Shown here one piece after another: positions 27,755-31,827 of a stretch of 64,000 nt of DNA (position 1 is its first letter; the number at the start of each line of letters is the position of its first letter). The DNA is taken from contig JANQGX010000045.1 in assembly GCA_028282885.1 (NCBI GenBank), positions 1-64,000 of the forward strand. Reading direction: 5' to 3'. Origin of the DNA: SAR324 cluster bacterium (GTDB taxonomy: Bacteria; SAR324; XYD2-FULL-50-16). The translations under genes and the position numbers were made by a program. The notes under the pieces are model-generated. The model was not told the DNA's origin and made no database searches. It was given only the letters and a program-made list of their open reading frames with translations.

Positions 27755-27832
27755 CGGGGTGTGGCGCAGTCTGGCTAGCGCACCTGCTTTGGGAGCAGGG
27801 AGTCGGAGGTTCAAATCCTCTCACCCCGACCA
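27755..27832 (+). tRNA. tRNA-Pro (TGG)
   Basis: Acceptor CGGGGTG/CACCCCG, D arm with GCGC, anticodon loop TTTGGGA (anticodon TGG), T loop TTCAAAT, discriminator A and an encoded CCA. First of six tRNAs on the plus strand after rph. Confidence 0.95.
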
Positions 27833-27866
27833 AAGCCAACAAAGCATCGCTGAATGGCTGTCTGTC

Positions 27867-27943
27867 GCGCCCGTAGCTCAGCTGGATAGAGCAACTGACT
27901 TCTAATCAGTAGGTCAGAGGTTCGAATCCTCTCGGGCGTGCCA
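27867..27943 (+). tRNA. tRNA-Arg (TCT)
   Basis: Acceptor GCGCCCG/CGGGCGT, anticodon loop CTTCTAA (anticodon TCT), T loop TTCGAAT, discriminator G and an encoded CCA. Confidence 0.95.
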
Positions 27944-27955
27944 TAAAATTGACAG

Positions 27956-28032
27956 GGCGGATGTAGCTCAGCTGGAAGAGCACCGGATTGTGGCTCCGGT
28001 TGTCGCGAGTTCGATCCTCGTCATTCGCCCCA
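27956..28032 (+). tRNA. tRNA-His (GTG)
   Basis: Acceptor GCGGATG/CATTCGC preceded by the extra G(-1) that pairs with C73, the tRNA-His hallmark. Anticodon loop TTGTGGC (anticodon GTG), T loop TTCGATC and an encoded CCA. Confidence 0.95.
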
Positions 28033-28050
28033 GTATGACATAAAGAACAT

Positions 28051-28127
28051 GCGCTTGTAGCTCAGCTGGATAGAGCAGTGGACTTCGAATCCAAAGGTCG
28101 TAGGTTCGAATCCTACCAGGCGCGCCA
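28051..28127 (+). tRNA. tRNA-Arg (TCG)
   Basis: Acceptor GCGCTTG/CAGGCGC, anticodon loop CTTCGAA (anticodon TCG), T loop TTCGAAT, discriminator G and an encoded CCA. The top pair of the anticodon stem (G27-A43) is mismatched. Second Arg tRNA of the cluster. Confidence 0.93.
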
Positions 28128-28148
28128 TTTCTCACGATGCTCTCAGAC

Positions 28149-28234
28149 GCGAGAGTGGCGGAATTGGCAGACGCGCCAGATTTAGGATCTGGTATCATTA
28201 TGATGTGGGAGTTCAAGTCTCCCCTCTCGTACCA
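28149..28234 (+). tRNA. tRNA-Leu (TAG)
   Basis: A class II tRNA with a long variable arm (TATCATTATGATGT). Acceptor GCGAGAG/CTCTCGT, anticodon loop TTTAGGA (anticodon TAG), discriminator A and an encoded CCA. Confidence 0.95.
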
Positions 28235-28243
28235 AAATAAAGA

Positions 28244-28319
28244 GCGAGAATAGCTCAGCTGGTAGAGCACAACCTTGCCAAGGTTGGGGTCGCGGGTTCG
28301 AATCCCGTTTCTCGCTCCA
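28244..28319 (+). tRNA. tRNA-Gly (GCC)
   Basis: Acceptor GCGAGAA/TTCTCGC, anticodon loop TTGCCAA (anticodon GCC), T loop TTCGAAT, discriminator T and an encoded CCA. It is the last of the six, and tig begins 158 bases further on. Confidence 0.95.
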
Positions 28320-28477: not shown

Positions 28478-29734
28478 ATGGAATCACTAGACGTAGCGAT
28501 CGAGGATCTGGGCAACCTGAAACGTAAAATGACGGTTACTGTCCCTCAGGATAAGGTCAAAGAGACTTACAACAAAGTATATAAGTCGCTGAAAAACAAG
28601 GTAAATATTAATGGATTCAGAAAAGGAAAGGTGCCACAGTCATTCCTGGAGAAGAGATTTCAAAAGGTAATGAGGGATGAAGCCATTGAGACCTTGATTC
28701 CCGAGTATTTTGACAAAGCGCTCAAGAAAGAGAACCTGAAACCAGCCGTCCGACCGCAATTCGGAGATCTGGAGATAGATAAGAAGAAACCACTGGTTTT
28801 CTCCGCTACGTTTGAGATTTATCCTGAATTTGAACGACCTGAATACGACCAGTTTACGTTGGAGAAGAAAGAAGTTGAAATAACCGATGATGAGATAAAG
28901 GATCAAAGACAAAGACATCTCGATGGAGCCGCTGCTTATGAGGAAAAAGACGGAGCAGCCGAGATTGGAGACCAGCTTCAGATAGAGTTTGTCGGTAAAG
29001 TTGATGATGAGGTGATCGCTGAAACCAGCAGTCAGTTTTATGAATTGGGTTCCAAACAGTTCCTGCCTGAGTTCGAAACGGCGCTGACCGGCATGAAACC
29101 CGGAGAAGAAAAAGACTTCGATCTGACCTTTCCCTCTGATTACAATGAAGAGAAGCTGCAAGATAAAACAGCCGCTTTTCATGTTAAAGTAAAAAAAGTA
29201 CAATTAAAGAAAGAGACCGAGATCAACGAGGAGTTCTTCAAACGATATGGAGATCGGGTTAAATCTGAAGACGATTTCGACACCCTTATTAAAGATGAAG
29301 TCAAGTTCAGCAAAGAGAACGAAATAAAAAGGGACCAGCGCAATTCCGTTCGAGAGAGACTCAATGAGCTTCTCGAATTCGAGGTTCCGGAGCAACTTCT
29401 TCAGGAAGAGATCAATATCAGGGTAGGGCAGGAAAAGAGAAAGAACGAAAAAGATGAAAGATCTGATGACGAGATAAAAAAAGCCGTTGAAGAAGATGCA
29501 ATAAAAGACCTGCGATTTTCGATTTTCGTTCAAAAAATCCTGGACGAAGAGGAGCTAAAGCCGGATGAAAGAGAAGTATATCAAAGATTTGAAATCAATT
29601 GTTCCATGATGGGCATCCGACCCGAAGAATTGATGCAGCAGGATTATGGTCGCCAAATTTATCAACAGATCTTCGGAATTGTAGCCGAAGAGACCGTTTT
29701 AGATTTCTTAATCGATAATATCCTAGAGAAATGA
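28478..29734 (+). CDS. tig: Trigger factor, ribosome-associated chaperone
   Basis: 418 residues, slightly shorter than E. coli (432). The N-terminal ribosome-binding domain has the signature [16 protein letters not shown] (about residues 47-62). A central FKBP-type prolyl isomerase domain spans about 150-245 ([19 protein letters not shown], then [12 protein letters not shown]). The C-terminal helical chaperone arms follow. It binds ribosomal protein L23 and shields nascent chains. The stop overlaps the clpP start by 4 bases. tig-clpP-clpX is the common bacterial order, which makes the altered clpP noteworthy. Confidence 0.97.
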
Positions 29735-30318
29735 GCATTCCTTACGTCGTTGAGCAAACCAATCGAGGTGAAAGAACCTACGACATTTATTCAAGATTGC
29801 TGAAAGACCGCATCGTGTTTTTAGGCGATGTGGTTAATTCATACACGGCAAATGTTGTCATCGCCCAGTTGTTGTTTCTGGAAGCTGATAAACCCGATTC
29901 CGATATCAGTTTTTACATCAACTCTCCCGGTGGCGAAGTCAACGCCGGATTGGCGATTTATGATACAATTCAATATATAAGACCGGATGTTCAAACCATT
30001 TGTATCGGCCAGGCAAAAAACATCGCCGCACTTCTGCTTGCCGCCGGTGCAACTGGAAAGAGAATTGCATTACCTAATTCAAACATTCTTCTGCGACAAC
30101 CCATAGGAGGTATTGGAGGTCAAGCTGCCGACATAGAAATTCAAACCCGCGAAATCGTCCGCATCAAGCAAAACCTGATCGAGATCCTGGCCAAGCACAC
30201 CGGACAAAACAAAAAAAGAATTGCGGAAGACTCCGAACGGGATTGTTATCTCACCAGCAAGGAAGCTGAAGAATACGGCATTATTGACAAAACGATGGAG
30301 CGCAGGGATATCGGCTAA
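29731..30318 (+). CDS. clpP: ClpP-family protein lacking catalytic Ser and His (ClpR-like)
   Basis: 195 residues, full-length ClpP fold. The oxyanion/strand motif [18 protein letters not shown] is present, as is the handle helix [20 protein letters not shown]. The nucleophile box, normally GQAASMGAFLL, reads [11 protein letters not shown] with Asn97 in place of Ser. The histidine box, normally IMIHQPLGG, reads ILLRQPIGG with Arg122 in place of His. The Asp of the triad is kept as Asp171 in [19 protein letters not shown]-like sequence. Codons were checked directly (AAC at 30019-30021, CGA at 30094-30096). This subunit should not cleave peptides. ClpR subunits of cyanobacteria and plastids are inactive in a similar way and work in mixed rings with active ClpP. 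It is coupled to tig and followed by clpX after 21 bases. Confidence 0.93.
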
Positions 30319-30339
30319 ACATCCAACTTCATATGATTG

Positions 30340-31584
30340 ATGGCTAAAGAGACAACCTTAAGATGCTCGTTTTGCGGAAAATCGCAAGATGAAGTGGAAA
30401 AAATAATCGCAGGTCCTACCGTATACATCTGCAATGAATGCGTTGAGCTTTGTAACGACATTATTGAAGAAGAAAGAGCCAAAGAGACCAGCGAAGATGG
30501 CGACACTGTATTGCTCAAGCCCAAACAGATCAAAACGATACTGGACGAATATGTGATCGGGCAGGAACATGCTAAAAAGGTTCTTTCAGTCGCAGTCTAT
30601 AATCACTACAAAAAAATATACACCCCGCAAAAAGCGGGTGAGGTTGAATTCCAGAAGTCTAACGTTTTGTTGATCGGACCGACGGGAGTTGGCAAAACCT
30701 TGCTGGCACAAACCCTGGCCAAGATCCTGAAGGTTCCCTTTGCCATGGCCGATGCCACAACTCTGACCGAAGCAGGTTATGTCGGAGAGGATGTTGAGAA
30801 TATCATCCTGAAACTCCTGCAAGCCGCTGATTACGATATTGAAAAAGCCGAAAAGGGAATCATCTATATTGATGAAATAGATAAAATCACCCGGAAAGGG
30901 GAAAACGTTTCCATTACCCGTGATGTCAGTGGCGAAGGAGTTCAGCAGGCCCTTCTCAAGATTATTGAAGGAACCACTGCCAATATCCCTCCCCAGGGTG
31001 GACGAAAACATCCCCAGCAGGAGTTTCTGCAGGTTGACACAACCAATGTGCTATTTATTGTAGGCGGTGCCTTTGTAGGTTTGGAGGATATCATCAACGA
31101 GCGCATCGGCAAGAAAGTCCTGGGCTTTGGCGCAAAAATAACCTCGGAGAAAGAAAAGAACATTGGAGAAATATTCAGTCAGGTCGAAAATGAAGATCTC
31201 TTAAAATATGGTCTGATTCCGGAATTTGTAGGACGATTGCCGGTGATTTCATCTCTGGATGATCTTTCTGAGGATGACCTGATTAGGATTCTCCAGGAGC
31301 CTAAGAACGCGATTATCAAGCAATATAAAAGCCTGATGGAACTCGATGGTGTTAACGTTGTATTTAACGACGACGCTGTCAGAGCCATCGCTCATAAGGC
31401 AATTGAACGTAAAACCGGTGCCAGAGGCTTACGCGCCATTCTTGAAGCCAGTATGCTGAATATCATGTATGAAGTCCCTTCTCTTGAAAACATAGAAGAG
31501 ATCATCATGAATAAGGAAGTGATCGAGAAGAGCATCGATCCCCTGATCGTATACAAAAACGGTACTGCGAATAAAGCCAGTTAA
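30340..31584 (+). CDS. clpX: ClpX, ATP-dependent unfoldase
   Basis: 414 residues. The N-terminal zinc domain has C9-x2-C12 and C31-x2-C34. Walker A is GPTGVGKT at 113-120, and the Walker B region is [12 protein letters not shown]. The pore and sensor motifs [18 protein letters not shown] and TGARGLRAI are normal. The loop that docks into ClpP (IGF in E. coli) is present as L261-G-F263. So ClpX looks fully able to unfold substrates and contact a ClpP-type ring, even though the adjacent ClpP is predicted inactive. ATG at 30340 is used; a TTG lies one codon before. No lon gene follows; tRNA-Val comes next. Confidence 0.97.
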
Positions 31585-31668: not shown

Positions 31669-31744
31669 GGGCGCTTAGCTCAGCTGGGAGAGCAACGGCC
31701 TTACAAGCCGTAGGTCACAAGTTCAAGCCTTGTAGCGCCCACCA
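31669..31744 (+). tRNA. tRNA-Val (TAC)
   Basis: Acceptor GGGCGCT/AGCGCCC, anticodon loop CTTACAA (anticodon TAC), T loop TTCAAGC, discriminator A and an encoded CCA. Confidence 0.95.
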
Positions 31745-31749
31745 TTTGC

Positions 31750-31827
31750 GGGGTTGTAGTTAAGTTTGGTTATAACGCCGGCCTGTCAAGCCGGAGGCCG
31801 CGGGTTCAAGTCCCGTCAACCCCGCCA
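31750..31827 (+). tRNA. tRNA-Asp (GTC)
   Basis: Acceptor GGGGTTG/CAACCCC, anticodon loop CTGTCAA (anticodon GTC), T loop TTCAAGT, the usual Asp discriminator G73 and an encoded CCA. It starts 5 bases after tRNA-Val, and the two form one unit. Confidence 0.95.

Follow-up and report, generated by a model that had tools for sequence, protein, structure and literature searches.

A candidate ClpR-like subunit in the tig-clpP-clpX operon of a SAR324 family and its probable triad-intact partner

Some Clp proteases carry catalytically dead subunits, and the open question of why they do so has been studied so far in cyanobacteria, plastids and apicoplasts. A contig of an uncultured SAR324 cluster bacterium (Lambdaproteobacteria; JANQGX010000045.1; the window analysed here is its positions 1 to 64,000) raises that question again. 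What is the role of a ClpP with neither the nucleophilic serine nor the catalytic histidine, encoded directly beside clpX? The genome that contains the window is a 7.8 Mb draft in 95 contigs, and the genomes with which we compared it are mostly drafts.

The tig-clpP-clpX operon spans positions 28478-31584 on the forward strand. Its first gene, tig (28478-29734), encodes a trigger factor of 418 aa (NCBIfam TIGR00115, 336.8 bits, cut-off 180.2) and precedes clpP in 10/10 genomes of the family. The tig stop codon shares bases, in the sequence ATGA, with the start codon of a gene for a ClpP-fold subunit of 195 aa (29731-30318; PF00574, 254.7 bits). From the stop of the latter it is 22 bp to the ATG of clpX (30340-31584), which is intact, encodes an LGF ClpP-docking loop and scores 662 bits against NCBIfam NF003745 and 648 bits against TIGR00382. 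The intact clpX and standard operon position reported in the first-pass annotation are thus borne out, with tig and clpX both passing curated NCBIfam models widely. tRNA genes lie on both sides of the operon: upstream there are six at 27755-28319 (Pro, Arg, His, Arg, Leu, Gly), and a further two (Val, Asp) occupy 31669-31827 downstream.

We number residues as in mature E. coli ClpP, where the triad positions are Ser97, His122 and Asp171. Codon reading agrees with the original claim that asparagine (AAC, 30019-30021) stands in place of the nucleophile and arginine (CGA, 30094-30096) in place of the histidine; the third triad residue, Asp171 (GAT, 30241-30243), is retained. Also present, as had been claimed, are the SPGG motif and the handle region. 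The N-terminal axial hairpin segment (29731-29784) is intact in alignment with active ClpPs and forms strands 5-10 and 13-18 in an AF2 monomer model. That model (pLDDT 88.9) has the ClpP fold, with a TM-score of ~0.95 to solved ClpPs, and a Foldseek search returned the ClpP fold and nothing further. From the loss of both Ser and His, we infer that the subunit is catalytically inactive. The protein scores 288.4 bits against the NCBIfam clpP equivalog model TIGR00493, under the cut-off of 308.6, and passes the subfamily model NF001368. Automatic annotation will mislead at this locus, given that the NCBI subfamily model ‘ATP-dependent Clp protease proteolytic subunit’ is passed despite the missing active site.

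Asn97 and Arg122 occur together at the tig-clpP-clpX position in all ten family genomes, which represent seven genera. Across the family, Asn97 is written AAC or AAT and Arg122 CGA, CGC or CGT. For pairs of family clpR genes pN is ~0.06, with pS saturated (~0.8) in most pairs; the two pairs in which dN/dS is measurable give 0.02 (G008/G009) and 0.07 (G004/G005), compared to ~0.04-0.05 among class ClpP1s with an intact triad. Because dN/dS is low and codons 97 and 122 turn over synonymously, the sequences indicate that purifying selection is acting on a gene with a dead active site, and decay is ruled out. Draft assemblies leave some room for sequencing or assembly error, or for pseudogenisation in one strain, as the source of both substitutions. 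Counter to this, ten separately assembled genomes are concordant at both codons; their reading frames are intact, the codons vary synonymously and dN/dS is low. We regard this explanation as refuted by the concordance and the low dN/dS, and its probability as negligible. The conservation under purifying selection that the first-pass annotation proposed to look for in relatives is therefore present, and fixed, family-wide. An intact triad at this locus, which it named as evidence against its reading, is found only in relatives that do not belong to the order, and there it is the ancestral state that one would expect.

Could the altered site still cut? Peptide cleavage by an unconventional Asn97/Arg122/Asp171 chemistry would fit the conservation of Asp171 and of the fold, and also the fixation of neighbouring residues in new states (G99 to A and I121 to L). 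However, mutagenesis of two ClpP paralogues showed that neither Ser nor His could be dispensed with (PMC12900304), and M98, which adjoins the nucleophile, is changed too, to I, V or T. We consider such chemistry very improbable.

Comparison beyond the family suggests the order in which the residues were lost. In G010, the only genome of the order from outside the family and a member of a sister family, ClpP1 has Asn97, His122 and Glu171, whereas the ClpP1s of the remaining class members have Ser and His. Outside the order, all 96 distinct ClpP homologues, from many phyla, have Ser97 and His122 (position 171 is Asp in 82, Asn in 11, Glu in two and Tyr in one), the survey outside the class being one of closest homologues only. 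Matches at the clpP1 position to the degenerate pattern GQAxNxA, sought in 52 class genomes, come only from the 11 genomes of the order; the remaining matches occur at about control level and look like chance. In a maximum-likelihood tree, G010 groups with the family (99/96 support) on a long branch. The serine was thus probably lost first, in the ancestor of the order, and the histidine later, in the ancestor of the family. A single base change suffices for each step (AGY to AAY for Ser, CAY to CGY for His). With a sister-family intermediate that has lost Ser and kept His, and with intact orthologues in the class, stepwise loss is testable by comparison. The half-way ClpP1 of G010, encoded in a 1.5 Mb genome (L138 4240-4845, on G010:C13), may itself be a ClpR. 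In two members of the family, G005 (L011) and G004 (L013), the SPGG of the dead subunit reads SYGG, which is additional drift close to the substrate-binding strand. In class family f3 (L015-L034), where the ClpP1 triad is intact, the conserved Pro after HQ is replaced, such that IHQP becomes IHQM or IHQL.

By descent, the window gene appears on the evidence at hand to lie outside the cyanobacterial ClpR clade, the tree being one without cyanobacterial ClpR sequences. Descent from a cyanobacterial clpR is disfavoured because the gene is the tig-clpP-clpX orthologue, because its product is ~60-64% identical to ordinary bacterial ClpPs, and because that product fails NF009204 (187.7 bits against a cut-off of 263), which we take to be the model of cyanobacterial ClpR-like proteins. 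In other respects the gene has what distinguishes a ClpR: full-length ClpP homology (by the PF00574 score and the fold comparison), loss of the triad at two of its three residues in 10/10 family genomes, and maintenance by selection, as judged from pN of ~0.06 at saturated pS and from synonymous turnover at both codons. A triad-intact ClpP accompanies it in 7/10 family genomes and in the order sister. Of the attributes of a canonical ClpP, it has the docking pocket and axial hairpin, and in place of Ser-His-Asp it has Asn-Arg-Asp and misses the equivalog cut-off.

The triad-intact companion, which we call ClpP2, is the second clpP for which a genome search had been proposed. In the window genome it lies at G000:C49:122429-123016, has Ser, His and Asp intact and is ~39% identical to the dead subunit. 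We found ClpP2 in seven of the ten family genomes (G000-G005 and G007) and in G010, and in 25 sampled genomes from the rest of the class; its triad is intact in every case. Contamination or a binning artefact can be dismissed because the clpP1 locus and clpP2 share a contig in both G001 (C81) and G005 (C19). Among the family members examined, clpP2 has the same genomic surroundings (clpP2-ugd-uxs-trmJ-like, names read from translations), unlinked to the clpX operon. ClpP2 was not found in G006 (79% complete), G008 (68%) or G009 (93%), whose assemblies are incomplete or fragmented. The relevant G009 contig begins ~190 bp before uxs, which in relatives is the second gene after clpP2, and an assembly gap is a possible cause of the missing G009 copy. 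We accordingly dropped the claim that ClpP2 was lost from genus g7, to which G008 and G009, both without a match, belong. Orthology of ClpP2 with the ClpP2 of Pseudomonas is likewise unsupported, its best sequence matches in the PDB being other ClpPs.

Another protein with a ClpP-like domain, 563-566 aa long, occurs in the large genomes G000 (L003 5-1693; domain around 914-1429 of G000:C55) and G009 (L123 3233-4930; G009:C424) only. The domain covers approximately residues 304-475 of the G000 copy, with Ser, His and Asp present, and the long N-terminal region has no Pfam match. We set this protein aside as a partner of the dead subunit: it is ~24% identical, occurs in 2/11 genomes and in G000 stands alongside ClpP2.

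How the two subunits might divide the work is suggested by their docking parts. We take the hydrophobic pocket to comprise 17 positions, some of them from PMC4416901. In E. coli ClpP, pocket residues Y74, Y76 and F96 of the precursor correspond to mature positions 60, 62 and 82 (PMC4416901). Across the 17 positions the dead subunit has nearly the same residues as its triad-intact orthologues in the class, among them R22, L23, D26, I28, L48, F49, Y62, T79, Y82, I90, I92, L114 and M189. As far as sequence can tell, it is the dead subunit that carries the canonical ATPase receptor. The docking loops are kept on the other side of the interface as well, in all ten family genomes ([LM]GF in ClpX, IGF in ClpA), which makes it likely that both ATPases continue to dock on a Clp ring. 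ClpS is encoded in all 11 genomes of the order. Two large family genomes also encode a second, divergent ClpX-like protein of 537-563 aa (G009:C371:1318-2517 and G001:C8:40006-41166; ~240 bits to TIGR00382).

ClpP2 presents the complementary picture. The N-terminal axial hairpin motif is missing, and in an AF2 monomer model residues 2-23 form a single helix. In the pocket, D26 is replaced by T, I28 by T or S and Y62 by F, L or M, with F62 and F/L82 remaining as hydrophobic residues. On paper, ATPase docking on ClpP2 is weakened, and given these remaining residues it may still occur. The hairpin is missing from ClpP2 throughout the class, including where the ClpP1 triad is intact, and the complementarity of the two subunits therefore partly predates the loss of catalysis.

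In ClpP, the two rings touch through the handle. Order-specific changes in ClpP2 fall in 6/16 class-conserved handle columns (positions 128, 131, 132, 138, 139 and 141) versus 5/57 elsewhere (one-sided Fisher p = 0.011, in a post hoc, uncorrected test on related sequences). The enrichment is absent in two control splits of the class (p = 0.76 and 0.45), and the same test on ClpP1/ClpR gave no handle enrichment (p = 0.73). We interpret the ClpP2 changes as a hint of the trace that a new ring partner could leave.

Taken together, we propose that an ordinary operon ClpP1 became a ClpR-type subunit, independently, within one SAR324 family, and that this ClpR would join ClpP2 in a single hetero-oligomeric Clp core. 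ClpX, or ClpA with ClpS, would dock on the ClpR face by way of the conserved hydrophobic pocket and the axial hairpin, opening the gate; substrate would then traverse the non-catalytic ClpR subunits and be cleaved by ClpP2. We put the probability of such a core, with ClpR docking and gating and ClpP2 cutting, at roughly three in four. Co-assembly, the docking side, the direction of substrate movement and the choice between separate rings (ClpR7 on ClpP2-7) and mixed ones are all points that we infer from sequence. By analogy, such a core would tolerate a partner that has lost catalysis, because precedents in P. plecoglossicida, Mycobacterium tuberculosis (Mtb), Leptospira and Synechococcus cover each step. 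More tentatively, and with a probability somewhat below one half, the protease may be obligately asymmetric: ClpX and ClpA would dock only on a non-catalytic ClpR ring serving as gate and antechamber, and a distal ClpP2 ring without ATPase docks would do all the cutting. This would make the SAR324 subunit a second independent origin of ClpR, separate from that of cyanobacteria and plastids, by conversion of a standard operon ClpP.

The ClpR-like identity suggested in the first-pass annotation gains support from the triad-intact ClpP2 in the genome and from the fixed, constrained Asn97 and Arg122. Of the two mechanisms it offered, a core shared with a second ClpP is better supported than a scaffold or adaptor, because the axial hairpin in its canonical form is retained by the dead subunit and missing from the only triad-intact ClpP. 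In the scaffold alternative, rings made of ClpR alone would bind ClpX as scaffold, adaptor or brake, leaving ClpX to unfold only, and ClpP2 would work apart, for example with ClpA. The retention in ClpR of every ClpX-docking feature examined, the place of its gene in the clpX operon and the separate location of clpP2 are consistent with such rings. Yet a ClpP2 working separately, with no canonical hairpin and an altered pocket, would need other means of docking; the docking loops of both ClpX and ClpA persist in all ten family genomes; and the handle changes in the ClpP2 of the order suggest that the partner at its ring-ring contact has changed. We judge rings of ClpR alone to be improbable.

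A different question is whether ClpR and ClpP2 might be mixed inside each heptamer and not confined to one ring each. Such mixing would be a special form of the hetero-oligomeric core, its probability being part of that given above, and has a documented parallel in the cyanobacterial ClpP3/R core (PMC4673316). The paralogues are, however, just ~39% identical, the hetero-cores that have been characterised beyond cyanobacteria, in Mtb and Listeria, are described as stacked homo-heptamers (PMC4416901, PMC4673316), and the enriched changes in ClpP2 sit in the ring-ring handle. We judge mixed heptamers to be unlikely. Returning to the shared core in general, docking and gating on the one hand and cutting on the other are seemingly split onto two genes, which offers a natural experiment on whether a ring must be catalytic for an ATPase to dock.

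In the literature that we searched for ClpR and pseudoprotease ClpP, mostly non-subscription, no ClpR was found outside cyanobacteria, plastids and apicoplasts, and a search for ClpP with SAR324 returned nothing. Like ClpR of Synechococcus, plastid ClpR1-4 and apicoplast ClpR, the SAR324 protein is a conserved ClpP-fold subunit without catalytic residues, accompanied by a paralogue whose triad is intact (PMC4673316, PMC7966870). In cyanobacteria, ClpR has ClpP3 as its partner and acts together with ClpC, and the clpX-linked clpP2 encodes a separate ClpP (PMC4673316, PMC3834315); Synechocystis has a clpP2 that overlaps clpX, with clpP3 and clpR numbered consecutively as slr0165 and slr0164 (PMC3834315). 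In contrast, the dead subunit of SAR324 is the tig-clpP-clpX gene itself, derived from a standard ClpP1, in a lineage with ClpX and ClpA. The Synechococcus ClpP3/R core is active, and restoring the catalytic site of ClpR does not speed it up (PMC4673316).

Closer in layout are the two-ClpP systems of other bacteria. Pseudomonas (P. plecoglossicida, P. aeruginosa) likewise has an operon ClpP that retains its N-terminal domain and an N-terminally truncated, unlinked paralogue, which there form a heterotetradecamer. In P. plecoglossicida, ClpX is bound by just one of the two, the operon ClpP with its N-terminal domain (PMC12900304); there the operon copy is fully active and the truncated copy has a weak, atypical triad, whereas in SAR324 the operon copy is dead. 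M. tuberculosis ClpP1P2 also comprises two paralogues, and ClpX docks on the face of the ClpP2 ring only (PMC4416901), a one-sidedness shown in Mtb and proposed for SAR324; both Mtb rings, unlike those proposed here, have catalytic residues. Leptospira ClpP1P2 resembles SAR324 in gene layout, with clpP1 and clpX at consecutive locus numbers and clpP2 elsewhere, and its pure isoforms are inactive and the heterocomplex active; loss of catalytic residues is not described for Leptospira in that study (PMC12493166). Listeria ClpP1 and other Ser-His-Asn ClpPs similarly have a divergent triad (PMC12900304), but they keep the Ser and His that SAR324 has lost. Thus, the best reading of the sequence comparisons is that the SAR324 subunit is an independently evolved ClpR, an ATPase-docking and gating partner of ClpP2, and what is new relative to these systems is which partner lost catalysis: the operon ClpP.
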